Shown here one piece after another: positions 1-10,328 of a stretch of 64,000 bases of DNA. A model generated the notes under the pieces. The model saw only the letters and a list, made by a program, of their open reading frames with translations, had not been told where the DNA came from and made no database searches. The DNA is from Chryseobacterium turcicum (GTDB lineage: Bacteria; Bacteroidota; Bacteroidia; Flavobacteriales; Weeksellaceae). The DNA is taken from contig NZ_JAJNAY010000001.1 in assembly GCF_021010565.1 (NCBI RefSeq), positions 248,001 to 312,000 of the forward strand, written 5' to 3'. The position numbers and the translations under genes were made by a program. Each line of letters opens with the position of its first letter. The first letter of the stretch is position 1.

Positions 1-135
1 ATGAGTTACGGGCTTTTGAATGAAACCAATAATTTAAAAAAAGAAGGAAGTGGAAGACCGGGAAAATTGTTCACTTTCAATCAGGAAAAATATAAAGAAT
101 TGGAAGAACAGGGATTTTATTTTGAAATCAAATAG
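1..135 (+). CDS. C-terminal fragment of NrtR-like Nudix/winged-helix regulator
   Basis: The window opens inside an open frame that ends at a TAG at 133-135, giving 44 residues. The tail reads GSGRPGKLFTFNQEKY followed by a Gly-Phe-x-Phe-Glu-like ending. This GRPxKLYxF type of C-terminus is, from memory, typical of the winged-helix half of Nudix-domain regulators of the NrtR/AraR type in Bacteroidetes. NrtR proteins sense ADP-ribose or related ligands and repress NAD-metabolism genes. That would fit the ADP-ribose gene array immediately downstream and its operator-like repeats. The Nudix half lies outside the window, so the identification rests on this tail and on context. The ATG at position 1 is probably internal. 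Confidence 0.5.
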   Translation: MSYGLLNETNNLKKEGSGRPGKLFTFNQEKYKELEEQGFYFEIK

Positions 136-186
136 CTTTTTAAACACGAATGACACAAATATTTTTCACTAATGATTTTTGTGTTA

Positions 187-263
187 TTGTCATTCATAAT
201 GAAGCGAAACGGAATGAAAATATCAAAACATGAAAATAGATTCTTGCTTCGTCAGAATGACAA
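187..263. repeat. Inverted-repeat element with TTGTCATTC ends
   Basis: TTGTCATTC at 187-195 is exactly complementary to GAATGACAA at 255-263. Inside the arms, GAAGC (201-205) faces GCTTC (246-250). A second element with the same termini lies at 42053-42124 between murG and murC. It looks like a dispersed non-coding palindromic repeat. Confidence 0.7.
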
Positions 264-304
264 ATTTTGTGAATAATCTTAATACAATTCCGTATTTAAA
301 CATC

Positions 305-371
305 AATAGGAACGGACTTTAGTCCGTTTTTCAATTCAAAGTATATCAAATTGGCTTTAGCCAAAACTTAA
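305..371. repeat. Twin-palindrome repeat, copy 1
   Basis: ACGGACTTTAGTCCGT (312-327) is a perfect palindrome and TTGGCTTTAGCCAA (351-364) is another, about 25 bp apart. The leading AATAGGAA and the trailing AACTTAA are shared with a second copy at 2961-3026, where the first palindrome has become TGGGCTTCAGCCCA. Because the palindrome changes while staying symmetric, secondary structure seems to be what is kept. Confidence 0.75.
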
Positions 372-473
372 GTATAAAATAATCAAATGTGTCATTTGTG
401 AAAAACACTTGTGCTATTTGCATTTAAATAAAATAAATTTTAATTACTGAAAATCAATCAGTTGTCTTTATTC

Positions 474-490
474 GTGTAAAATTAACGCAA
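474..490 (+). promoter_or_regulatory. Operator-like 17-mer O1
   Basis: GTGTAAAATTAACGCAA is the first of three near-identical 17-mers, with consensus GTGTRAMAWWAACGCAA. The central 15 bases are imperfectly palindromic (11 of 15 positions). O1 ends 5 bp before the -33 element of the promoter at 496-528. Confidence 0.6.
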
Positions 491-495
491 ATAAA

Positions 496-528
496 TTTGG
501 TTAGTAAAATTATATTGTTTTACATTTG
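496..528 (+). promoter_or_regulatory. Bacteroidetes-type promoter of the ADP-ribose array
   Basis: TTTG at 496-499 and TACATTTG at 521-528 match the Bacteroidetes -33/-7 consensus TTTG and TAnnTTTG, with a 21-bp spacer. The predicted start is near 533, inside operator O2, leaving a leader of about 130 bases before the first gene at 661. Operator overlap with the start site points to repression. Confidence 0.6.
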
Positions 529-544
529 TGTAACAATAACGCAA
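528..544 (+). promoter_or_regulatory. Operator-like 17-mer O2
   Basis: GTGTAACAATAACGCAA begins on the last base of the -7 box and covers the predicted transcription start. It lies 54 bp downstream of O1. The extended ends TTGTGT and ACGCAA are complementary except at one position. Confidence 0.6.
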
Positions 545-628
545 TTATGAAATGCACTTTAGAAAAGTTTCAGAAAAAAGATTAATAATTCGAAAAGAAT
601 TAAGGCAAAACTATGCAGTTTTAAATTA

Positions 629-645
629 GTGTGAAATAAACGCAA
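629..645 (+). promoter_or_regulatory. Operator-like 17-mer O3
   Basis: GTGTGAAATAAACGCAA lies 101 bp downstream of O2 and ends 15 bp before the first start codon at 661. Its position in the transcribed leader suggests a roadblock or a looping site together with O1 and O2. Confidence 0.55.
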
Positions 646-660
646 ATAAGAAAATGAGCT

Positions 661-996
661 ATGGAAGAAGACTTAAAACCCAGATTCATCGAGTCATTAC
701 AAAGAAATAACGACAAGATAAGAGAAGATCGAGCCCGAACTATCGGAGAAGATTCAGAGTTGATATACAGGCGAAAAGTAGAAGACATCGAACTGAAAAT
801 AAAAAGACTGGAAAGAGAACAAGAAGGTCTTATCGACATTAGTCCGTTAGATAAAAACAGTTTAACATTCGCAGATTTTCAGCCGGAAACATTTGTTCAG
901 AGAGACATTGAATTATCATTAACAATAAGAAATTTAAATATTCAACTAGATGTTTCGGTAAAAAGGTTTGAGTATTTATTTGGCAAAAAATTTTAA
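661..996 (+). CDS. Hypothetical coiled-coil protein, 111 aa
   Basis: This is the first gene of the ADP-ribose array and I do not recognise its family. It is rich in Lys, Glu and Arg, with no signal peptide or membrane segment. Residues about 30-58 form a charged stretch (LKIKRLEREQ) that should be a coiled coil. The second half is mixed and ends in FEYLFGKKF. The ATG at 661 is chosen because the nearby ATG at 654 is in another frame. The VWA gene begins 3 bp after its stop, so the two products probably act together. An adaptor or assembly role for the VWA protein is a guess from spacing only. Confidence 0.75.
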   Translation: MEEDLKPRFIESLQRNNDKIREDRARTIGEDSELIYRRKVEDIELKIKRLEREQEGLIDISPLDKNSLTFADFQPETFVQRDIELSLTIRNLNIQLDVSVKRFEYLFGKKF

Positions 997-999
997 GTT

Positions 1000-1854
1000 A
1001 TGGGAAGTACAAGATATGACATAGACGCTCGTTTTGACAGAGCCAGAAAAGAAGGATATGCATCAAAATCTGCAAGTGAAATTTTTACGCAGAATGCAAA
1101 AAGAAGAGCACACGAATCTATGAATCCTAATGGAATTTCTTTTAGGGAATCAAGAGATTCTTCAGTACACCCGAATTCTGTTCCAATTATTTTGGGATTA
1201 GACGTTACCGGAAGTATGGGGCATATTCCCCATGAATTAATTAAAGAAGGTCTTCCAAAATTAATGGGTGGAATCATCCAAGGCGGTGTTCCCGATCCTG
1301 CACTTTTATTCTTGGGAATTGGCGATCATGAATGTGACGGTTATCCTTTGCAAGTTGGGCAATTTGAATCTGGAGACGAAGAACTGGATATGTGGTTGAC
1401 AAGAACTTATATAGAATCTGGAGGTGGCGGAAATGCCGGAGAAAGTTATCTGCTTGCTTGGTATTTTGCCGCTTTTCATACCAGAACTGATGCTTTTGAA
1501 AAAAGAAATCAAAAAGGATTATTGTTCACTGTGGGTGATGAACCTTGTTTGAAAACGCTTCCCGCTTCTGCAGTCAGAGAAATTATGGGAACGGGGCAGC
1601 AGACTTTCAAGCACACTGAATTATTGGTAGAAGCTCAAAAGAAATATGAGGTTTTTCACATCAGTGTTTTGCATTCCGGACAGGCAATAAATGCAGATAA
1701 AGGCTGGAAAGATCTTTTGGGGCAAAACTGTTTGTCTATTGAAGATTACAGAGATGTTCCGAATGTAATTAAAGAAGTAGTTTGTAACAGATTTAAAGAT
1801 CAATTTAGTAAAACTAAAGATTTAGGTGGTTTTAATAACATTCAAATGTTTTAA
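1000..1854 (+). CDS. VWA-fold protein with MIDAS motif, 284 aa
   Basis: A cytoplasmic von Willebrand factor A-like protein. A charged N-terminal region (1-60) leads into beta-strand PIILGLD and a MIDAS-type DVTGS at residues 68-72 (D-x-T-x-S), which would bind a divalent metal. A glycine-rich ESGGGGNAGES at about 139-148 supplies a conserved loop, and FTVGDEP may give a later MIDAS-associated acidic residue. No membrane segment or signal is present. VWA proteins usually mediate metal-dependent protein contacts, often with ATPase partners, but no AAA+ gene is nearby. It sits between the coiled-coil gene and the adenylosuccinate synthetase-like gene (3-bp gaps), so it may scaffold enzymes of this array. 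Confidence 0.8.
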   Translation: MGSTRYDIDARFDRARKEGYASKSASEIFTQNAKRRAHESMNPNGISFRESRDSSVHPNSVPIILGLDVTGSMGHIPHELIKEGLPKLMGGIIQGGVPDPALLFLGIGDHECDGYPLQVGQFESGDEELDMWLTRTYIESGGGGNAGESYLLAWYFAAFHTRTDAFEKRNQKGLLFTVGDEPCLKTLPASAVREIMGTGQQTFKHTELLVEAQKKYEVFHISVLHSGQAINADKGWKDLLGQNCLSIEDYRDVPNVIKEVVCNRFKDQFSKTKDLGGFNNIQMF

Positions 1855-1857
1855 AAA

Positions 1858-2928
1858 ATGAAAACAGCACAACTCATTATAGGCTTAGGTTTTGGTGATG
1901 AAGGGAAAGGAATCACTACAGATTTTCTGGCTCGGCAAAATCCTGAGTCTGTAGTTATTCGTTTTTCTGGCGGTCAGCAAGCGGCGCATACTGTGATGAT
2001 TGATGATAAAAAGCATGTTCATTCGAGTTTTGCGAGTGGTGCGTTGCGAGGTTTGCCATCTTATATTACAGAACACTGTACAATTCATCCTACTTTTTTA
2101 TTTAATGAAAGGGAAGAATTAATTCAAAAAAACGGAAATATTGAGTTGCATATTCATCCTTTGGCAAAAGTAACGACGCCTTTTGATGTTTTTAGCAATA
2201 GAAAAAATGTCAAAAATTTAGAACACGGAACCTGTGGAAAAGGAGTGGGCGCAACGATGAAAAGAAACGAAAGTCCATTTAAATTATTTGCCGCAGATTT
2301 AATCGCTCCTCAATCAATGTTGATTGAAAAGCTAAAAGGAATTGCCAATTATTACGGTTTTGAAGAAGGAGAAGAAATACAAAATGCATTACAAGATTTT
2401 TTAGAAGCAATTGATAAAATTGAATGGAAAATAGAAGGTTATGATTATTTAAAATCATTTAGCAATCTTATTTTTGAAGGCAGCCAGGGAGTTTTATTAG
2501 ATATGGATCATGGTGTTTTTCCGAATGTAACGTATGCGCATACAACTTCAAAAAATGCCTACGAAGTTTGTAAATTGTTGGAGATTAAAAATATTGAAAT
2601 GTTTTATGTGACAAGATCTTACTCAACCCGTCACGGAAGCGGTTGGATGAGCAATGAAAAGGAAATAGTATTAAACAACAATGAAGAGGAAACCTGTATT
2701 TTTAATGAATATCAAAAGGAATTGCGCTTCGGAGATATAGATTATGATTTGCTAAATTATGCGTTAAAATTGGATGAAGCTTATGTTTTTGCTCAAAAGA
2801 AAAATTTGGTGGTGACTTGTCTAGACCAACTGGATGAAGAATTTAAAATAGAAAATCTAAAGGTAAAATTTGATAAGGTTTTTGGATCTTATTCTCCATA
2901 TTCGAAGGATTTTAAAAGAATTAATTGA
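1858..2928 (+). CDS. Divergent short adenylosuccinate synthetase-like protein
   Basis: Clearly of the PurA fold, 356 aa against about 430 for housekeeping PurA. The GTP/IMP loop GFGDEGKG (11-18) keeps the catalytic Asp14, and GGQQAAHT keeps the catalytic His44, although the usual GGHNAGHT is altered. FEGSQGVLLDMDHG and TRSYSTRHGSG match PurA motifs. Two sites differ: the aspartate-binding TTGRxRR loop is not seen (the segment reads KELRFGDIDYDLL), and the guanine-recognition TKLD appears as TCLD. PurA joins aspartate to IMP using GTP; here the amino-acid substrate and perhaps the nucleotide may differ. It lies in an ADP-ribose gene array, not among purine genes, so I would not call it purA. 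Confidence 0.8.
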   Translation: MKTAQLIIGLGFGDEGKGITTDFLARQNPESVVIRFSGGQQAAHTVMIDDKKHVHSSFASGALRGLPSYITEHCTIHPTFLFNEREELIQKNGNIELHIHPLAKVTTPFDVFSNRKNVKNLEHGTCGKGVGATMKRNESPFKLFAADLIAPQSMLIEKLKGIANYYGFEEGEEIQNALQDFLEAIDKIEWKIEGYDYLKSFSNLIFEGSQGVLLDMDHGVFPNVTYAHTTSKNAYEVCKLLEIKNIEMFYVTRSYSTRHGSGWMSNEKEIVLNNNEEETCIFNEYQKELRFGDIDYDLLNYALKLDEAYVFAQKKNLVVTCLDQLDEEFKIENLKVKFDKVFGSYSPYSKDFKRIN

Positions 2929-2960
2929 TAAAGTTAAATAATTAAACGTAATAGCTAATT

Positions 2961-3026
2961 CAATAGGAATGGGCTTCAGCCCATTTTAAAATGAAAAAAA
3001 TAGGAAGGCTTTAGCCAAAACTTAAA
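2961..3026. repeat. Twin-palindrome repeat, copy 2
   Basis: AATAGGAA is followed by TGGGCTTCAGCCCA (2969-2982) and later by GGCTTTAGCC and AAAACTTAAATA. It matches the element at 305-371 in order and edges. The second palindrome here is shorter because its left flank has changed. It fills most of the 129-bp gap before the next gene and separates the first three genes of the array from the rest. Confidence 0.7.
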
Positions 3027-3057
3027 TAAAAAAAATAATAATAAAAAAAGCACAGGA

Positions 3058-3471
3058 ATGAAAACTATAACATTATTCAGACCAGTCGGCGAGAAAGAAA
3101 TGATTTTAATTATCGAAACTCATTACAAAAAATTTCCTCCGAGATTAGAATGGCAACCGATTTTCTATCCAGTTTTAAACGAAGAGTATGCGTCCGAAAT
3201 TGCAGAAAAATGGAACACGAGAGACGAAGCAGGAAACTATCTTGGTTTTGTAACCAAATTTGAAGTGCTGGAAGATGATGTGAAAAAATATCCTGCTCAA
3301 AATGTAGGAGCCAAAAATCATAATGAATTATGGGTTCCTTCAGAAGAATTAGAAGTTTTTAACCAAGCAATTATAGGGAATATTGAGGTTGTAAAAGTAT
3401 TTATAGGGAAAGATTTTAAAGAATCTGTAAATACTGATATAGAGAAATTATTAGTAAACATAAAAAACTAA
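3058..3471 (+). CDS. ADP-ribosylation/crystallin J1-type small protein
   Basis: A 137-aa soluble protein of a family that databases often name 'ADP-ribosylation/crystallin J1'. Features I recognise are the opening LFRPVGEKE, the central FPPRLEWQPIFYPVLN and the ending LWVPSEELEVFN. It is far too short for an ADP-ribosylglycohydrolase, so the inherited name is doubtful. The order of Arg, Tyr and Glu residues could suit a small ADP-ribosyltransferase-like or ADP-ribose-binding fold, but no motif proves this. It is followed 2 bp later by the PARG-like gene, so modification or binding of an ADP-ribosylated substrate is a reasonable inference. Confidence 0.6.
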   Translation: MKTITLFRPVGEKEMILIIETHYKKFPPRLEWQPIFYPVLNEEYASEIAEKWNTRDEAGNYLGFVTKFEVLEDDVKKYPAQNVGAKNHNELWVPSEELEVFNQAIIGNIEVVKVFIGKDFKESVNTDIEKLLVNIKN

Positions 3472-3473
3472 CG

Positions 3474-4289
3474 ATGACAAATAAAGGAATGGCAAAAGAT
3501 ACATTAGATATCTTAGCTAAGAAATATTATATAAACGAACACAACGAAAAAATAAATATAGAAAATGAACTAGAAACTTCCACAAAAGGAACAATTTTGT
3601 TTTCATCAGAAGAACTTTCTGAAATAGTGAAAAATGAATTTCCAGAAACTAATTTTGAAACACAGTTTGAAGTCTGGAAATGCAGTTCAGTAAAAGCAAT
3701 TTTACAATTAGCTGAAGAAGAAAATCAAGAAAAACTGATGTGTCTGAATTTTGCATCAGCAAAAAATCCGGGAGGCGGTTTCATCAATGGAGCAGAAGCT
3801 CAGGAAGAAAGCTTGGCGCGAACTTCTGGATTGTATGAAAGTTTACTTCAGGGCTGGAAATATTACGAAACTCATCGCGCTATGGAATCTTGTTTTTACA
3901 CCGATACGATGATTTATAGTCCGAAAGTTCCAGTTTTTAGAAAAGATAAAGGTGAATTGTTATTAAAACCTATTTTCTGTAATTTCATCACATCTCCGGC
4001 AGTGAACGCAGGTGTTGTTAAGAAACAAGAACCAGAAAAGGCTCATGAAATTTTCGGAGCAATGGATATGAGAACAGATAAAATGCTGGCTTTGGCTCTA
4101 CATCAAGGAAATGAAACCTTAATTTTAGGAGCTTGGGGATGTGGCGTTTTTAAGAATAATCCGAAAGAAATTGCAGAGTTATTTAAAAAGTGTCTTCAAG
4201 GAAAGTATAAAAATAAATTTAAGAGAGTGGTTTTTGCAATTCTCTCGAAAAAGGAGGAAATGATACAACCGTTTGAAGAAATAAAATGA
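3474..4289 (+). CDS. Bacterial-type poly(ADP-ribose) glycohydrolase (TIGR02452, macro fold)
   Basis: A 271-aa macrodomain-superfamily enzyme. The PARG signature GGG-x7-QEE is complete at residues 100-112 (NPGGG then QEES), where the second Glu is the catalytic acid in known PARGs. The preceding LNFASAKNPGGG is typical of the microbial TIGR02452/DUF2263 family. The C-terminal part has LILGAWGCGVFKN, which matches the phosphate-binding loop of this family. It would cut ribose-ribose bonds or terminal ADP-ribose from protein or nucleic acid. Its last four bases overlap the next start codon (ATGA), which suggests translational coupling with the ADP-ribosylglycohydrolase. Confidence 0.85.
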   Translation: MTNKGMAKDTLDILAKKYYINEHNEKINIENELETSTKGTILFSSEELSEIVKNEFPETNFETQFEVWKCSSVKAILQLAEEENQEKLMCLNFASAKNPGGGFINGAEAQEESLARTSGLYESLLQGWKYYETHRAMESCFYTDTMIYSPKVPVFRKDKGELLLKPIFCNFITSPAVNAGVVKKQEPEKAHEIFGAMDMRTDKMLALALHQGNETLILGAWGCGVFKNNPKEIAELFKKCLQGKYKNKFKRVVFAILSKKEEMIQPFEEIK

Positions 4290-5197
4290 AAACAGATAAA
4301 CTCTCACATGCTTCGAAATCACTTACAGGAATTTCCATAGGTGACGCTTTTGGTGAAAGTTTTTTCGGAGAAGAAAGCGTAATGAAGACTTATATCCATC
4401 AAAGAATTTTGCCTGAAACATCTCTTGATTTTACGGATGATACTATTATGTCAATTGCAATTTTTAAGTCTTTAGAAAAATATGGAGAAATTAATCAGAA
4501 TTTTCTAGCAGAAGAGTTTACAAAAAATTATTACTTAGATATAAACAGAGGATATGGACCTTCGATGCATCAATATTTCAGAGCTGTAAAAAGTGGAGAA
4601 AACTGGAAGAAAGTTTCTTATTCTAAATTTGAAGGACAAGGTTCGATGGGAAATGGTGGAGCAATGAGAGCTTCGGTAATAGGAGCTTATTTTTACGATG
4701 ATTTGAAATTATTAAAAATAAATGCGGAGCTTTCATGCGAAGTCACTCATGCAAACAAAGAAGCTATAGAAGGCACAAAAACAATTGCTTTGGCTGCTGC
4801 TTTTGCAGTTCAGGAAAAATTAGGAATCTCAATATTCACTCCAGAAAATTTCATTCAAAAAATTCAAAATGAATTGGAAGATTCTGATATGAAAAGCAAA
4901 TTGAATAAAGTTCTTCACTTGAATGGAAATCCAAGCGTTGAATTATTGGTAAAAACTCTAGGAAACGGAATAAAAATGACCGCTCAAGATACAGTTCCGC
5001 TTGTTGTTTGGATGCTTTCAAGATATCGACATAATTTTGAAGAATGTCTTTGGAAGACCGTTTCAGCATTGGGCGACAGAGATACAACCTGTGCCATGGT
5101 TGGAGGAGTAAGTATTTTATGTTGTGATGAAAATACGATTCCGGATTGGACAAAAAACATAGAAAACTGGCCAAAAAGCAAATATTATGAAAATTGA
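4286..5197 (+). CDS. ADP-ribosylglycohydrolase (ARH/DraG family), copy A
   Basis: A 303-aa all-alpha ARH/DraG-type hydrolase. The first metal site is FTDDTIM (Asp51, Asp52) and the second is [12 protein letters not shown] (Asp263, Asp265), where Arg replaces the usual Thr of [18 protein letters not shown] and the HANKEAIEG helix are also family features. Two Mg ions in this fold cleave ADP-ribose from Arg, Ser or other acceptors. It is only distantly similar to the second copy at 6497, so the two probably have different substrates. It overlaps the PARG gene by 4 bp and the macrodomain gene by 11 bp. Confidence 0.85.
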
Positions 5198-5699
5198 ATT
5201 AACAAAAGGCGACATCACCAAAATAAAAGCAGACGCTATCGTCAACGCTGCTAATTCATCCTTGCTTGGAGGAGGCGGAGTTGATGGAGCAATTCATCGT
5301 GCAGGCGGACCTCAAATTTTAGAAGAATGTAAAGAGATAAGAAATAGGCAAGGAAAATGTAAAACAGGAGAAGCTGTGGAGACAACAGCTGGAAATCTTT
5401 CTGCAAAATATGTCATTCACACAGTGGGGCCGATTTGGAATAATGATGAAGAGAAATGTTCGAAACTATTGGCAAACTGTTATAAAAATTCATTGAAATT
5501 AGCTGAAAGCCTTGATGTAAAAACGATTGTTTTTCCCAATATCAGCACAGGAGTTTATAGGTTTCCAAAAGAATTGGCTGCAAAAATTGCTATTGAAGAA
5601 ATTAGAAATTTTGAATCAAAGATTGTTGAGAAAGTTATTTTTGTATGCTTTGATGAAGAAAATGAAGAGATTTATAAAAAATTATTAGACAGTAATTAA
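5187..5699 (+). CDS. Macrodomain protein, MacroD/YmdB type
   Basis: A 170-aa single macrodomain. It shows [20 protein letters not shown] (8-27), the [10 protein letters not shown] loop (28-37), and ISTGVYRFP (about 119-127), which together form the ADP-ribose pocket of MacroD enzymes. Members hydrolyse O-acetyl-ADP-ribose and mono-ADP-ribosyl-aspartate or glutamate esters. O-acetyl-ADP-ribose is the product of sirtuins, and a sirtuin gene follows at 5811, as in several known macrodomain-sirtuin pairs. It starts inside the end of the upstream hydrolase gene. No signal or extra domain is present. Confidence 0.9.
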
Positions 5700-5711
5700 A
5701 TGTTCTGATTC

Positions 5712-5798
5712 AGAATTGTCTCGCAGATTAATTTGATTTAGTGTAATGTTAATATAAAAAATCTGCATAATTTGCTAAATCTGCGAGAGATTTAAATT
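5712..5798. repeat. Inverted repeat with a partial operator in the loop
   Basis: CTCGCAGATT near 5720-5729 is complementary to AATCTGCGAG near 5784-5793. The loop contains GTGTAATGTTAATATAA (5741-5757), which matches the operator-like 17-mer of the leader at 12 of 17 positions. It lies in the 111-bp gap before the sirtuin gene. It may be a weak internal operator or only a dispersed repeat. Confidence 0.45.
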
Positions 5799-5810
5799 AA
5801 GATTAAACAA

Positions 5811-6497
5811 ATGAAAAAACTAACCATATTAACTGGCGCCGGAATCAGTGCCGAAAGCGGAATAAAAACATTCAGAGACGGAGATGGTCTTTGGGAAAAT
5901 CATAGCATCACAGATGTGGCAAGTCCCGAAGGATGGCGTAAAGACAAAGCTTTGGTTTTGGAATTTTACAACCAGAGACGCCGCCAAATTCATGAAGTGG
6001 AGCCAAATGATGCACACAAACTAATAGCCGATTTAGAAAAACATTTTGATGTTCAGATTATCACGCAAAATATCGATGATTTGCACGAAAGAGCCGGTTC
6101 TACCAATATTCTTCACATTCACGGAGAATTGTTAAAATCTTGTTCTTGCAATAATAAAGGACTTATTTATGACCAAAAAGACGATATTAATATCGGAGAT
6201 AAGGCAGAAGACGGAGCTCAATTGCGACCTTTTATCGTTTGGTTTGGGGAAGATGTTCCCTTGATGAAGGAAGCGACAGAAAAAGCAAGTGAAGCAGATA
6301 TTTTCTTGGTTATCGGAACTTCATTGCAGGTGTATCCGGCTGCAGGATTGCTTCACGACATTAAAGATGATTGTTTGTTGATTGTTATCAATCCCAACGA
6401 AACAGGTTTCGGATACGGACAAAGAGCTGTTGTCATGAAAGAAACCGCCACAAAAGGAATGAAACTCTTGTTTGATAAGCTTGTAAATTTAGCATAA
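5811..6497 (+). CDS. cobB: Sirtuin NAD-dependent deacylase, CobB/SIRT5-like
   Basis: A 228-aa Sir2 enzyme. GAGISAESG binds NAD, QNIDDLHERAG follows, and His104 in HIHGE is the catalytic base. Tyr53 and Arg56 (YNQR) form the Y-x-x-R pair that in SIRT5 and CobB selects succinyl or malonyl groups. The zinc ribbon is degenerate: only Cys111 and Cys113 are present and the second Cys pair is absent (DKAEDGAQLRP), as I recall for several Bacteroidetes sirtuins. It consumes NAD and releases nicotinamide and O-acyl-ADP-ribose, which the upstream macrodomain could hydrolyse. The stop shares one base with the next start. Confidence 0.9.
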   Translation: MKKLTILTGAGISAESGIKTFRDGDGLWENHSITDVASPEGWRKDKALVLEFYNQRRRQIHEVEPNDAHKLIADLEKHFDVQIITQNIDDLHERAGSTNILHIHGELLKSCSCNNKGLIYDQKDDINIGDKAEDGAQLRPFIVWFGEDVPLMKEATEKASEADIFLVIGTSLQVYPAAGLLHDIKDDCLLIVINPNETGFGYGQRAVVMKETATKGMKLLFDKLVNLA

Positions 6498-7462
6498 TGG
6501 AAAATGTAGTAAAAGCGGGAATTTTCGGAGTTTGTATTGGTGATGCTTTGGGTGTTCCTGTGGAATTTAGAAGTAGAGAACAATTGAAACGTTCACCAGT
6601 TACAAAAATGAGAGCTTTAGGAACTCATCATCAACCTTTGGGAACTTGGAGTGATGATAGTTCTTTAGCCTTATGTCTTGCAGAAAGTCTTTGTAAAGAT
6701 TATGATTTGGAAGATATCGCGACAAAATTTTTGCAATGGTACAATGCGGAAATCTGGACTCCGCATGGAAGGGTTTTTGACATTGGGATTGCAACCTCGC
6801 AAGCTATTCATAGAATAAGCAAAGGTGTTTATCCCACTTTATGTGGTGGTACAGGTGATTTCGACAACGGTAATGGTTCTTTAATGAGAATTATGCCATT
6901 ATTATTCTACATTAAGGATTTTCCAATTGAAAAACGTTTTGATATTGTCAAAGATGTTTCTTCAATCACACATGGTCATATTCGTTCTGCGTTGGCATGT
7001 TTTATTTATTTGGAATTGGCTTTAGAAATTCTGAAAGGAAATGATAAGTGGGAAGCATACAAAACGATGCAGAAAACGGTTTGGAATTTTTTAAATGAAA
7101 ATCCTATTTGTTCTCAAAATGAAATGGATAAATTCCACAGAATTTTAGAACTAAAAGTTGGGGAATATGATGTAGCTCCTCTACATACTTTGCAAGAAGG
7201 TGAAATCAGTTCAAGCGGCTATGTTCTTCACAGTTTAGAAGCCTCATTATGGTGTTTTTTAAACTCAGAAACTTATTCAGAAGCGGTTTTGAAAGCGGTC
7301 AATTTAGGAGAAGATACCGATACAATCGGAGCAATTACGGGAGGTATTGCAGGAATTTATTATGGCTTTGAAAATATTCCTCTAGATTGGATTGAAGAAT
7401 TGGTGAGGAAAGATGATATTGAAAATGTATGTAACAAATTAGAAAACAAATTAATGAAATAA
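6497..7462 (+). CDS. ADP-ribosylglycohydrolase (ARH/DraG family), copy B
   Basis: A 321-aa ARH/DraG hydrolase with canonical motifs: GVCIGDALGVPVEF at the start, WSDDSS (Asp53, Asp54), the central NGNGSLMRIMPL, and GEDTDTIGAITGGIAG near 270-285. The last is closer to the textbook GDTDT metal motif than in copy A. It probably removes ADP-ribose from protein or nucleic-acid acceptors, or hydrolyses O-acetyl-ADP-ribose. The TAATG junction with the sirtuin gene and the 10-bp gap to kptA place it firmly in the operon. Confidence 0.9.
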   Translation: MENVVKAGIFGVCIGDALGVPVEFRSREQLKRSPVTKMRALGTHHQPLGTWSDDSSLALCLAESLCKDYDLEDIATKFLQWYNAEIWTPHGRVFDIGIATSQAIHRISKGVYPTLCGGTGDFDNGNGSLMRIMPLLFYIKDFPIEKRFDIVKDVSSITHGHIRSALACFIYLELALEILKGNDKWEAYKTMQKTVWNFLNENPICSQNEMDKFHRILELKVGEYDVAPLHTLQEGEISSSGYVLHSLEASLWCFLNSETYSEAVLKAVNLGEDTDTIGAITGGIAGIYYGFENIPLDWIEELVRKDDIENVCNKLENKLMK

Positions 7463-7472
7463 AAATACGATT

Positions 7473-8015
7473 ATGAACGAAAAACATAAGAAAAAAACAA
7501 GCAAATTTCTGAGCTACGTTCTCAGACATCATCCCGAATTGATTAATTTGAATTTAGACGAAAACGGATGGGCAAATGTTGATGAATTGATTGCAAAATC
7601 AACTAACGATTCTCAAGGTTTTACTTTCGAAGAATTGGATGAAATTGTAGAAACAAACGACAAAAAAAGGTTTATTTTTAATGAAGATAAAACCAGAATC
7701 AGAGCTAATCAAGGGCATTCAATTGATATTAATCTGGCTTTAATTTCTCAACAGCCTCCTGAATTTTTGTACCACGGAACGGCTCAATGTAATATTGATT
7801 CCATTTTAGAAAAAGGAATTGAAAAAAGAAGCCGACAACATGTTCATCTGAGTCAGGATAAAGAAACTGCAAACAAAGTTGGAATGCGCCACGGAAAACC
7901 CATTATTCTAACCATCAATACACAAAAAATGTTTGAAGATGGAATAAAATTTTATCTTTCTGAAAATAATGTATGGCTGACAGATTTTGTGGATGCAAAA
8001 TATATTTCGCAATGA
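7473..8015 (+). CDS. kptA: RNA 2'-phosphotransferase Tpt1/KptA
   Basis: A 180-aa Tpt1/KptA enzyme of usual length. The winged-helix part carries SKFLSYVLRHHPE with Arg18 and His19, and the ART-like part has YHGTAQCNIDSILEKGI, RSRQHVHLS and RHGKPIIL, supplying the later catalytic Arg residues. The family transfers an internal RNA 2'-phosphate to NAD, releasing ADP-ribose 1'',2''-cyclic phosphate and nicotinamide; some members also ADP-ribosylate RNA or DNA ends. It could therefore be the NAD-consuming step whose product the macro, PARG and phosphatase genes handle. Its TGA overlaps the next ATG. Confidence 0.93.
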   Translation: MNEKHKKKTSKFLSYVLRHHPELINLNLDENGWANVDELIAKSTNDSQGFTFEELDEIVETNDKKRFIFNEDKTRIRANQGHSIDINLALISQQPPEFLYHGTAQCNIDSILEKGIEKRSRQHVHLSQDKETANKVGMRHGKPIILTINTQKMFEDGIKFYLSENNVWLTDFVDAKYISQ

Positions 8016-8215
8016 CAAGTCAAGAATTTGAAGAAGAGGTAAAAGGCTTTTCTATTAAGAAAGATGATTTAAAAGAAAAAGTTGATGAGCTATTTGGTAA
8101 TGGGGCAGGAACAATACATATTTTATACTTCATTGTTGAGCATAAGAACTGTAAATTGATAGAAGCAATGGAAATTATTGAATATAGCCCAAATTATTAT
8201 AAAAGATTTAAATGA
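8012..8215 (+). CDS. Hypothetical 67-aa protein coupled to kptA
   Basis: The start at 8012 (MTSQEFEEEVKGF) is chosen because it makes an ATGA overlap with the kptA stop; a longer frame from 7973 would run 43 bases into kptA. The stop also makes an ATGA overlap with the phosphatase gene. The product is small, charged and soluble, with a helix-rich look (KKDDLKEKVDELFG) and a hydrophobic core (IHILYFIVEHKNCKLIEAMEIIE). I know no family for it. Being coupled on both sides suggests a partner or modulator of KptA or of the phosphatase. Confidence 0.75.
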   Translation: MTSQEFEEEVKGFSIKKDDLKEKVDELFGNGAGTIHILYFIVEHKNCKLIEAMEIIEYSPNYYKRFK

Positions 8216-8961
8216 AAAGAACATTAGTTATAGGTGACATTCACGGTGGATTCAAAGCTTTGAAACAGGTTTTGGAAAGAGCGAATGTCACGGAAGATGA
8301 CACATTGATTTTTCTTGGAGATTATGTAGATGGTTGGAGTGAATCGTCTCATATTATTCAGTTTTTAATAGAACTTTCAGAAAAACAAGAATGTATTTTT
8401 ATTAAAGGAAATCATGATGTTTGGACTGAAGATTGGCTGTCTTTAGGAAGTGCTCCCGATATTTGGCTTTTCAACGGAGGACAAAGTACGGTTGATAGCT
8501 ATTCTGAATATTCTCTGGAAGAATTAGAAATTCATTTGGCGTTTTTTGAAAAAATGAAAAATTTTTATACTGATGAAGACAACAGATTGTTTATTCATGC
8601 GGGATATTCATCTATGCATGGTCCGGAAAAAGAGGTGTATTCAAGCAATTATCGTTGGGATAGAACGCTTTGGGAAACCGCTGTTGGCATGGATAGAAAA
8701 TTAGAGAAAAACTCAAAATTGTATCCGAAAAGATTGCTTCTATATAAAGAAATTTTCATCGGTCATACTCCGACTTTACATTTAGGAATTGATAAACCCG
8801 TCAACAAAGCCAATGTATGGAACCTTGATACAGGCGCAGCTTTTACAGGAGCATTGTCGATTATGGATATCGATACCAAAGAATTCTGGCAAAGTGACAT
8901 TCTTCCATCTTTATATGCTAATGAAAAAGGAAGAAATAATTATATAGTCAAATTAAAATAA
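8212..8961 (+). CDS. PPP-type metallophosphoesterase
   Basis: A 249-aa calcineurin-like phosphatase. Metal-site motifs are GDIHGG (8-13), GDYVDG (36-41), GNHD (66-69), HAGYS and IGHTP, so both metal ions can bind. In the PPP family the second motif usually reads GDYVDRG; here Arg is absent (GDYVDGW). It has no signal peptide. Family members act on phosphoproteins, dinucleoside polyphosphates or RNA ends. As last gene of the array, next to kptA, a role in removing phosphates from RNA 2',3' ends or from ADP-ribose phosphates is plausible but unproven. A terminator follows at 8961-8991. Confidence 0.88.
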   Translation: MKRTLVIGDIHGGFKALKQVLERANVTEDDTLIFLGDYVDGWSESSHIIQFLIELSEKQECIFIKGNHDVWTEDWLSLGSAPDIWLFNGGQSTVDSYSEYSLEELEIHLAFFEKMKNFYTDEDNRLFIHAGYSSMHGPEKEVYSSNYRWDRTLWETAVGMDRKLEKNSKLYPKRLLLYKEIFIGHTPTLHLGIDKPVNKANVWNLDTGAAFTGALSIMDIDTKEFWQSDILPSLYANEKGRNNYIVKLK

Positions 8962-8991
8962 AAAATACGCTCCAATTTGAAGCGTATTTTT
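8961..8991. terminator. Bidirectional terminator
   Basis: AAAATACGCT and AGCGTATTTT form a stem with T-runs on both strands. It serves the convergent phosphatase (plus) and cupin (minus) genes. Confidence 0.85.
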
Positions 8992-9876
8992 CTATTTTTT
9001 AGGTAATCCTCTTTTTAGAGCATAGTGGGCTCTTTCAACCGCTTTTTTCTCTTTCCAATCCATATAGCGTTTTTTGTAACGCCCTTTCATAAAGTTGTCA
9101 AAATTTCTTTGAACGGTAAGATTCCACAAAGAATTAGCTTTTACGGCCCAAGATTTATCCCATGCACGAAGCGAAAGTGAGAAACTGCCATCCAGATATT
9201 TCATCCAGTGCCACCATCCGGTTGGCATGAATAGGGTGTCACCGTGCTCTAAGAAACATTCAATACCTTCTACACCGTCTAATGCAGGGAATTTTTCAAA
9301 ATCAGGATTTGAAATATCATAATCCTCCAAAGCATAAGTAGCGTAAGGTAATTTGTACAATCTGTCTTTCCATTTATATTCAAAAAGCAAAACATGTTTT
9401 CTTCCATTGAAATGGGTATGAAAAATGTGAGCTAAATCAATATCAAAATGTAAAAAAGTGACCGAACCTTTTCCTCCAAAAAACATAGAAGGATATTTAT
9501 CTAGAAAACCACCCATCAATTCTTTCGGCGGGATGTATTCATCAAGTAATTTCGAAGCATGTTTAATAGGGTCGAAAAAGAAAATTCGTAGATCGGTAGG
9601 CTCTCTTTGAATGAGGTCTATGTAATCTGCAAATTTCATCTCAGTAGTCGGTGTATTAATAGGAGCTGCAGGATCAGCTTTTTTGCTGTCATACAAAGGA
9701 ACTGTAATATCTCCTACCACTTCTTTCACATAATCCATCGTCCATTTTTGATAGGCTGGCCATTTTCTGGCCATATTTTTTATCACCACCGGCTTTCTTG
9801 GGATCAGATATTTCTCGCGGAACTCTTCTTGAGTAATATCGTCAACAATATCTATAGGCTTTAGAATAACCCCCAT
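8992..9876 (-). CDS. Cupin-like (JmjC/FIH-type) oxygenase
   Basis: A 294-aa Cupin_8/JmjC-like protein. The Fe(II) site is visible as HFDID (HxD, about residues 143-147) and a distal His in GWWHWMK near 222. PRKPVVIKNMARKWPA near the start is typical of the family. Such enzymes are 2-oxoglutarate oxygenases that hydroxylate protein side chains, often in ribosomal or repeat proteins; the substrate cannot be told here. A TAATTTTG -7-like box on the minus strand at 9896-9903 lies about 20 bp before the start. It is a single gene facing the ADP-ribose array. Confidence 0.85.
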   Translation of the reverse strand: MGVILKPIDIVDDITQEEFREKYLIPRKPVVIKNMARKWPAYQKWTMDYVKEVVGDITVPLYDSKKADPAAPINTPTTEMKFADYIDLIQREPTDLRIFFFDPIKHASKLLDEYIPPKELMGGFLDKYPSMFFGGKGSVTFLHFDIDLAHIFHTHFNGRKHVLLFEYKWKDRLYKLPYATYALEDYDISNPDFEKFPALDGVEGIECFLEHGDTLFMPTGWWHWMKYLDGSFSLSLRAWDKSWAVKANSLWNLTVQRNFDNFMKGRYKKRYMDWKEKKAVERAHYALKRGLPKK

Positions 9877-10328
9877 TTTTGTAAATTTTATATTACAAAA
9901 TTATTAAATATTTACTTACGGAAAATGATTTAAGATGTTTTTAATCTATGACCTTAATCACATTTTTATTAAGTCGAAATAAAAATTACATGAATTTGAA
10001 TTGTTTAAACTGTATTTTTTAAGCTAAATTCTTGTTTTTATTCATGTATTTGTGAATTTACAGTTGTTTTTTTGAAGGTACTGTCATAAAAATATGTTAA
10101 GATTTAAAAGAATGGAAAATCAATACAATTTATCACTATGTTTGTAGGTATAAAAATGAGATTTAAATATTTCAATAAAATTATATCTCTAAAAAGTGTA
10201 ACAAAAGACATTAATAAATAACTAATTACTTAAATAATAAATTTTGAAATCGCTGTGAATGCTAAATACCCTCATCAATTAATGTTCGGCGATTCCAAAT
10301 ACTCTTTAAAAAATATAAAAATATTGAT
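9877..10328. other. 452-bp divergent AT-rich spacer
   Basis: It separates the minus-strand cupin gene from the plus-strand beta-barrel gene. Apart from the candidate minus-strand -7 box at 9896-9903, I see no gene, clear repeat or terminator. Confidence 0.6.

Follow-up and report, generated by a model that had tools for sequence, protein, structure and literature searches.

The interval 661–8961 of a 64,000-nucleotide stretch of Chryseobacterium turcicum DNA (contig NZ_JAJNAY010000001.1; the whole stretch is called the window here) holds an array of twelve genes which, together with an adjoining regulator gene and operator-like palindromes, we judge reasonably likely to form an NrtR-controlled, ADP-ribose-inducible reversal-and-recycling regulon. 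The cluster may be a variant of the predicted ARG-centred systems, and the PurA-like ligase that it encodes may, with its partners, hold new chemistry.

The array and its products

A sequence-only reading had described twelve genes running head to tail in this interval, with genes that overlap or lie at most 3 bp apart at eight junctions. The list of open reading frames (ORFs) bears this out: all twelve are on the + strand, the eleven gaps in gene order are 3, 3, 129, 2, -4, -11, 111, -1, 10, -43, and -4 bp, and there is room for internal promoters in the 129-bp and 111-bp gaps. Pfam and NCBIfam searches confirmed the six ADP-ribose/NAD enzymes that had been named (a TIGR02452-type PARG, two ARHs, a Macro protein, Sir2, and KptA) and also the phosphatase said to end the array, which matches Metallophos. 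Above Pfam cut-offs we obtained PurA-like (1.3e-44), PARG/TIGR02452 (9e-89), ADP_ribosyl_GH twice, Macro, SIR2, KptA, and Metallophos; no such match was found for genes 1, 2, 4, and 11. The VWA label proposed for gene 2 comes from a DxTGSM motif and a confident model, not from a Pfam match. The regulator gene lies outside the coordinates of the sequence-only reading and was overlooked there. The features are as follows.

1..135, + strand: NrtR-family regulator, 3' end of gene (Pfam NUDIX 4e-21, NrtR_WHD 3e-22)
472..490: operator-like palindrome TCGTGTAAAATTAACGCAA, one mismatch (genome-wide pattern search)
526..544: operator-like palindrome TTGTGTAACAATAACGCAA, no mismatch (genome-wide pattern search)
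628..645: weaker operator-like site AGTGTGAAATAAACGCAA, two mismatches, about 34 bp before gene 1
661..996, + strand: gene 1, coiled-coil-like, 111 aa (coil read by eye)
1000..1854, + strand: gene 2, VWA-like, DxTGSM metal-site motif, phrog_2971 (motif, model)
1858..2928, + strand: gene 3, PurA-like ligase, paralogue of the housekeeping PurA (Pfam)
3058..3471, + strand: gene 4, 137 aa (homologue names)
3474..4289, + strand: gene 5, microbial PARG (TIGR02452), GGG...QEE motif (Pfam/NCBIfam)
4286..5197, + strand: gene 6, ADP-ribosylglycohydrolase (Pfam)
5187..5699, + strand: gene 7, Macro domain protein (Pfam/NCBIfam)
5811..6497, + strand: gene 8, Sir2 deacylase-like, FY..RR motif, which we take to be class III-like (Pfam/NCBIfam)
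6497..7462, + strand: gene 9, ADP-ribosylglycohydrolase (Pfam)
7473..8015, + strand: gene 10, KptA/Tpt1 RNA 2'-phosphotransferase, the genome's only PF01885 match (Pfam)
7973..8215, + strand: gene 11, 80 aa, no known family (ORF list, family search); an alternative start at 8012 instead of 7973 gives 67 aa
8212..8961, + strand: gene 12, calcineurin-like metallophosphoesterase (Pfam/NCBIfam)
8964..8995: terminator-like stem (AATACGCT...AGCGTATT) and T-run after the last stop codon (by eye)

Many homologues of gene 4 carry the NCBI record name "ADP-ribosylation/crystallin J1". Pfam matches of the twelve products included no RNA ligase, 2H, or RtcB gene and no ADP-ribosyltransferase besides KptA, and no tRNA gene was found in the 18-kb neighbourhood L002. 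Rfam gave no match at the gathering threshold on window positions 1–10000, and we therefore rejected a known RNA family in the leader. The spacer between nrtR and gene 1 also contains a hairpin, GGACTTTAGTCC, at 314–325, present as a single copy within the window.

Recurrence and gene content in relatives

We scanned GTDB species with the VWA-like gene, obtained at least 564 confirmed relatives, and analysed the best 80. These loci, all found through VWA, were taken as same-strand runs with gaps below 2.5 kb; family names come from Pfam on one representative each, families in fewer than 15 loci are not listed, and locus counts are lower bounds, some loci (e.g., L089, L112, and L115) ending at contig ends. 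The record titles are Chryseobacterium, Flavobacterium, Tenacibaculum, Cellulophaga, unclassified Flavobacteriaceae, and one "[Flexibacter]"; the best named relatives of gene 2 are from Chryseobacterium, at 94% identity. Because versions of the block recur in these 80 loci of named records, the arrangement is not due to chance, and we rejected the idea that it is confined to one strain. The neighbourhood search also returned a locus with the same twelve genes in the same order (L088, Chryseobacterium aahli), with one recognised gene inserted and with NADAR and 2OG genes before the coil gene.

Among the 80 loci the PurA-like gene is present in 80, coil in 76, KptA in 70, NrtR in 69, ARHb in 63, NADAR and phosphoesterase in 61 each, Macro in 54, Sir2 in 47, gene 4 in 45, DUF4291 in 42, PARG and a second Macro type in 40 each, 2OG oxygenase in 38, NAMPT-like in 34, and PRPS-like in 29. 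The PurA-like gene is always the next recognised gene after VWA (80/80, gap 4–271 bp), and the coil (gene 1 family) stands directly before the VWA-like gene in 76 loci, with a gap of at most 14 bp; in L049, which belongs to a smaller locus set, a DUF2971-type gene lies between VWA and the PurA-like gene. Same-genus loci have variable content between nrtR on the left and a cupin-type gene on the right (cupin in 12 of 15). Five same-genus genomes are listed as lacking VWA: in four of them the 13–14 kb next to nrtR hold little or nothing of the cluster, and the fifth has NADAR-gene 4-Macro-Sir2 with operators. Another genus, represented by G008, has DUF4291-Macro-ARH-KptA-phosphoesterase with operators and without VWA; in G010 and G009, which have a 41% NrtR-like gene, no cluster was found beside that gene. 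Counting the window's own genome, 16 of 148 genomes from the family and 15 of 395 from the phylum carry the VWA-like gene, and a profile of the gene's protein family finds the same 15 phylum genomes as the single sequence, all of them from the window's order.

The ADP-ribose block and the VWA/PurA-like unit are separable. Thus the sequence-only proposal of one dedicated set for ADP-ribose, NAD, and RNA repair, with recycling, holds in part. A dedicated set is backed by the regulator, the common operator-like sites, and the recurrence across genera, and recycling by the NADAR, Namat-like, and PRPP-synthetase-like genes added in relatives. A fixed twelve-gene system is rejected: content varies strongly among loci, and ADP-ribose genes with the same operator-like sites also occur without VWA/PurA.

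Two further observations concern these operons. DUF4291 (e.g., L035:9691-10338) is recurrent in ADP-ribose operons, at the frequency given above, and no paper using that name turned up in our literature search. By family search, a NADAR protein lies between nrtR and sir2 at L048:18190-18744; it has a weak, below-cut-off NCBIfam match (4.6e-13) to the "NADAR family anti-phage protein" model.

The NrtR-family regulator and its candidate operators

The whole nrtR gene (L002:7440-8135) starts 561 bp to the left of window base 1. The palindrome was first spotted by eye upstream of gene 1 and was then run against the whole 4.48-Mb genome. With at most one mismatch, TTGYGTNANNNTNACRCAA occurs at four places in the genome, namely at nrtR, twice before gene 1, and at pncB; the reversed-pattern control occurs at two. 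The copy at pncB (G000:C2:902794-902812, L085) is perfect and stops a single base short of the first ATG of that gene, which a family search identified as nicotinate phosphoribosyltransferase (TIGR01514). The palindrome stands out at zero or one mismatch only, and the initial operator pattern, allowing up to two mismatches, was dropped as no richer than its control (48/45 versus 50/44). Across relatives, a related 18-base pattern with at most two mismatches is found in 24 of 26 loci (the window's own and 25 relatives) and is absent from L030 and L039, and 77 of the 80 loci have at least two palindromes in or just before the run.

In the window, TACATTTG, a Bacteroidota -7-like box, runs into the palindrome at 526–544. 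A promoter-like box, TAnnTTTG (TANNTTTG), runs into the operator in 105 of 174 distinct sites; TA stands at the box offset in 109 of the 174, with 64 at the next best, the sites not being phylogenetically independent. Since this box resembles the Bacteroidota -7 box, binding at the operator would block transcription. Directly behind the perfect site, three-frame translation read by eye shows a NADAR-like remnant (541–582, + strand), AIMKCTLEKFQKKD followed by stops; many relatives have an intact NADAR at this position, judging from starts compared by eye.

This system resembles the NrtR regulons of NAD metabolism in its Nudix and NrtR_WHD domains, its palindromic sites, the site at the regulator's own promoter, and the site at an NAD salvage gene, pncB. 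It differs from them in its candidate targets, which here include ADP-ribose hydrolases, KptA, and the coil/VWA-like/PurA-like triad. A search of the openly accessible literature, with most subscription papers outside its scope, returned no match for ADP-ribose operons with KptA, NARP1, or NrtR.

NAD+ rebuilding genes in relatives

A clamp motif, GSX-phi-X-phi-X-phi-TRD with aromatic X, separates Namat from Nampt according to the available part of PMC12774641. A clamp reading GSFTYQYNTRD or GSYTYQYNTRD is found in all 34 NAMPT-like ORFs of the 80 loci and in one of four viral ones (35 of 38 in all). The Flavobacterium-type NAMPT-like protein chosen for comparison shares 58% identity with the Namat of phage SPbetaL1 and has an identical clamp. 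The PRPS-like companion proteins are 32–34% identical to SPbetaL1 Adps, and BLAST does not clearly separate the two candidate identities, with 97 bits to SPbetaL1 Adps versus 93 to E. coli Prs; conversely, SPbetaL1 Adps scores 98 bits to PRPS-like versus 61 and 55 to two canonical Prs proteins. In a small tree, PRPS-like groups with phage genes that adjoin Namat-motif genes (support 0.87), but canonical Prs is the first to join that group. Operons of the Flavobacterium type may thus use ADP-ribose and nicotinamide to rebuild NAD+.

Among the twelve products of the array, Pfam found no Namat with clamp and no Adps. Here salvage may take another route, as the operator at pncB suggests. Among the 80 loci, Sir2 and NAMPT-like genes nearly exclude each other (43 Sir2 only, 30 NAMPT-like only, four both, three neither), a pattern that follows genus.

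Bacterial NARP1 (Adps with Namat) is already known, and the available part of PMC12774641 calls its physiological role open. Like the NARP1 described there, the Flavobacterium-type relatives have, in one operon, a clamp GSFTYQYNTRD identical to that of SPbetaL1 and a PRPP-synthetase homologue; unlike it, the putative pair lies under NrtR-type sites together with ADP-ribose hydrolases, and its Adps is a candidate identity only.

The coil/VWA-like/PurA-like unit in phages and plasmids

IMG/VR contigs gave 348 confirmed VWA-like relatives, of which the best 80 were analysed with flanks of up to 10 kb. A PurA-like gene lies on the same strand within 3 kb of the VWA-like gene in 75 of these viral loci, and among the other five there are two in which the contig ends less than 1.5 kb downstream. 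The partner is a coil in 55 loci and a J-domain/kinase-like gene in 18, never both, and neither is present in seven. Together, VWA-like and PurA-like genes are a portable unit that bacteria share with phages. The J-domain-like and kinase-like alternative to the coil is seen, for example, at L048:11412-12302, L252:10817-11890, and L253:10983-12008, with Pfam support in L252 only.

Named phages gave 207 records for VWA (Mycobacterium 188, Rhizobium 10, Vibrio 6) and 226 for the PurA-like family (Mycobacterium 189, Rhizobium 10, Vibrio 6), in separate searches whose records were not paired one by one and the second of which may include ordinary PurA. Among annotated phages, Vibrio phiKT1024 has NADAR nearby and Rhizobium Y65 a Nudix-type gene nearby, with no coil or kinase recognised in either; Mycobacterium phage Shrimp has a kinase directly upstream of the unit. 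Separately, a TROVE-like family lies near the unit in 10 of the 80 viral loci and in Vibrio phage phiKT1024 (see L187:9818-11407 and L250:16530-18038); the match was confirmed by Pfam for one viral representative and for a gene of Vibrio phage phiKT1024, and such TROVE/Ro60-type neighbours hint at RNA quality control.

On plasmids, PurA is annotated after VWA in four of six neighbourhoods (Allorhizobium, Acetobacter, Tsukamurella, and Rhodococcus). A Nudix gene beside the unit matches NrtR_WHD in Allorhizobium (2e-15), Rhodococcus (0.0018), and Tsukamurella (0.049), and none was seen in the Acetobacter neighbourhood; a Rhodovulum plasmid has a Nudix gene (NrtR_WHD 4e-23) near VWA without an annotated PurA, and the Rhizobium leguminosarum neighbourhood, one of the six, has no annotation. 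Pairing of the unit with NrtR-like regulators thus recurs in Bacteroidota as well as Alphaproteobacteria, and more weakly in actinobacteria. On the Tsukamurella and Rhodococcus plasmids, similar palindromes (CTAGTC/GACTAG and TTAGTC/GACTAA, at L290:4791-4815 and L291:5785-5809) lie immediately ahead of the kinase-like/VWA/PurA-like/Nudix units.

No relative of the VWA-like family was found in PDB by sequence, and of 52 members one matches DUF444 (2e-5) and two weakly match VWA_CoxE. We found no published description of a VWA/PurA module in a search that left most subscription papers outside its scope.

Substrate-binding residues of the PurA-like ligase

The PurA-like ligase keeps the full PurA fold and the catalytic Asp13, His41, and Lys16; Asp13 is present in all 80 bacterial sequences and in 72 of the 74 viral ones, with gaps in the other two. 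The genome also encodes a canonical PurA (600 versus 152 bits). In PurA, Arg143 and Thr129 bind the phosphate of inosine monophosphate (IMP), and Thr301 and Arg303 the aspartate; a literature search returned no text that names the aspartate-site residues. Arg143 is kept in none of 80 bacterial and two of 74 viral sequences, Arg303 in one of 80 and three of 74, and Arg305 in none of 154. In the window's protein, the Arg143/Thr129 and Thr301/Arg303 columns are occupied by Pro, Cys, Gln, and Glu, the profile alignment shifting Gln one column later. His at 273 is found in all 154 PurA-like sequences and Cys at 331 in 150. R143L and R303L mutants of PurA are among the listed structure titles. Because the residues for aspartate and IMP phosphate, in contrast to PurA and PurZ, are nearly always replaced, the enzyme probably makes something other than adenylosuccinate.

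Discussion

The reversal-and-recycling regulon that we favour would work as follows. NrtR, sitting on the palindromes observed at the nrtR, gene 1, and pncB promoters, would keep these off, until ADP-ribose or a derivative bound its Nudix domain and, by analogy with the NrtR family, released it from DNA. The ARHs, Macro, and PARG, and NADAR in relatives, would strip ADP-ribose from protein side chains, RNA 2'-OH or phosphate ends, and bases; KptA, as in its family, would take off RNA 2'-phosphates at the cost of NAD+; and Macro and the phosphoesterase may clear Appr>p and O-acyl-ADP-ribose. The products would be recycled, through pncB salvage here and, in Flavobacterium-type relatives, through Namat-like and Adps-like proteins that would rebuild NAD+ directly from ADP-ribose. 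The coil/VWA-like/PurA-like unit would be semi-independent under the same switch, and its steps are the most uncertain: the ligase, judging from its residues, may activate a 6-oxopurine with GTP and join a non-aspartate amine, its substrate not being gripped as a simple 5'-monophosphate, and the VWA-like protein may be a metal-dependent scaffold for it.

Several observations weigh against this reading. NAMPT-like, PRPS-like, and NrtR-like genes occur in only four, four, and two of the 80 viral loci, and the unit's tie to NAD is therefore mainly bacterial. NrtR may have its main target elsewhere, since four of the same-genus genomes lacking VWA retain an nrtR orthologue beside which little or nothing of the cluster is found. 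The small tree places the PRPS-like group with canonical Prs first and with SPbetaL1 Adps only afterwards (0.84). The window's own genome gave no NAMPT-like match in a search with no positive control, an empty result that by itself shows little. The aspartate loop is where the alignment of the PurA-like ligase is least secure, and both Asn38 and Thr129 are retained in the copy of phiKT1024.

The closest published counterpart is a group of ARG-centred systems for which section 3.8 of PMC9503650 predicts a host role against viral ADP-ribosylation; more than 42% of them have a Nudix- or WYL-type HTH regulator and just over 55% a coupled phosphatase. Our array resembles them in its two ADP_ribosyl_GH proteins, its NUDIX and NrtR_WHD regulator, its calcineurin-like phosphatase, its Macro and NADAR accessories, and its modular content; gene 2, VWA-like by motif and model, is a candidate for their peptide-binding chaperone of the vWA type. 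The published systems were selected for lack of coupled ADP-ribosyltransferases (ARTs) or sirtuins (PMC9503650), whereas Sir2 (gene 8) and KptA (gene 10) are coupled in the array here. We therefore do not class it as a member, though it is apparently similar in working. That paper makes no mention of adenylosuccinate, PurA, Nampt, or PRPP, treating phage NadV-type synthesis in another section, and PMC7824862 makes none of PurA, adenylosuccinate, or Nampt. KptA RNA-repair operons have a ligase or 2H enzyme, and pairs of the DraT-DraG or DarT-DarG type a coupled mark-writing ART; neither was found here.

It is possible, if on the doubtful side, that the cluster is a conflict system in which the host undoes ADP-ribosylation and RNA cutting by phages or rival toxins and which stays off until attack releases ADP-ribose. 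The variable content between nrtR and the cupin-type gene, the near relatives without a cluster, and the phage relatives of several parts would fit; PMC9503650 predicts such a role for ARG with a Nudix transcription factor, phosphatase, and vWA, and the available part of PMC11833690 reports that PARGs reverse ADP-ribosylation of RNA 2'-OH and phosphate ends and that PARG protects against an RNA-targeting ART toxin. However, no effector gene was seen, the cluster's own Sir2 and KptA use NAD+, unlike the published template, and PADLOC, scanned with ten of the twelve products, gave weak partial matches only (best 1.3e-5), on which we rejected a known defence assignment. Plain NAD housekeeping, in which NrtR tunes salvage, the ADP-ribose enzymes clear by-products, and VWA and the PurA-like ligase are passengers, seems unlikely to us. 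It would account for the palindrome at pncB, the Namat-like and PRPS-like genes of relatives, and the four genomes that retain nrtR and little else, but not readily for the patchy presence of VWA (16/148 family genomes), nor for a pairing of VWA with NrtR-like genes that extends to Alphaproteobacteria and weakly to actinobacteria, which is unlike passengers.

For the ligase, a purine-supply role, whether as ordinary adenylosuccinate synthetase or as a PurZ of the Z-DNA type, seems quite unlikely to us. Its full PurA fold and the name that PHROGs gives its family, 2-aminooxy adenylosuccinate synthetase, point that way, but a canonical PurA is already encoded, Arg143, Arg303, and Arg305 are nearly always lost, and Asp13 is kept almost throughout where PurZ has Ser. 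A more specific proposal, which we put forward as speculative and doubtful as a whole, is that the coil (or J-domain kinase)/VWA-like/PurA-like triad is a new module of bacteria, plasmids, and large phages whose ligase is a new GTP-dependent enzyme, joining a non-aspartate amine to the hypoxanthine 6-position of a substrate larger than IMP (a deaminated NAD or ADP-ribose-type dinucleotide, a di- or triphosphate, or an RNA end) and so repairing or re-marking deaminated adenine; it would be ADP-ribose-controlled in Flavobacteriales and would blunt nucleotide-based immunity in phages.

If that proposal is true, the triad in Flavobacteriales acts alongside the enzymes for ADP-ribose release and NAD+ rebuilding. 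The regulon that we favour would give bacterial NARP1 a candidate context, in which NAD+ is rebuilt from ADP-ribose released by macromolecule repair under one ADP-ribose switch, and the analysis singles out a unit, widespread in phages and bacteria, in which the substrate pockets of a ligase fold appear to have been rebuilt.

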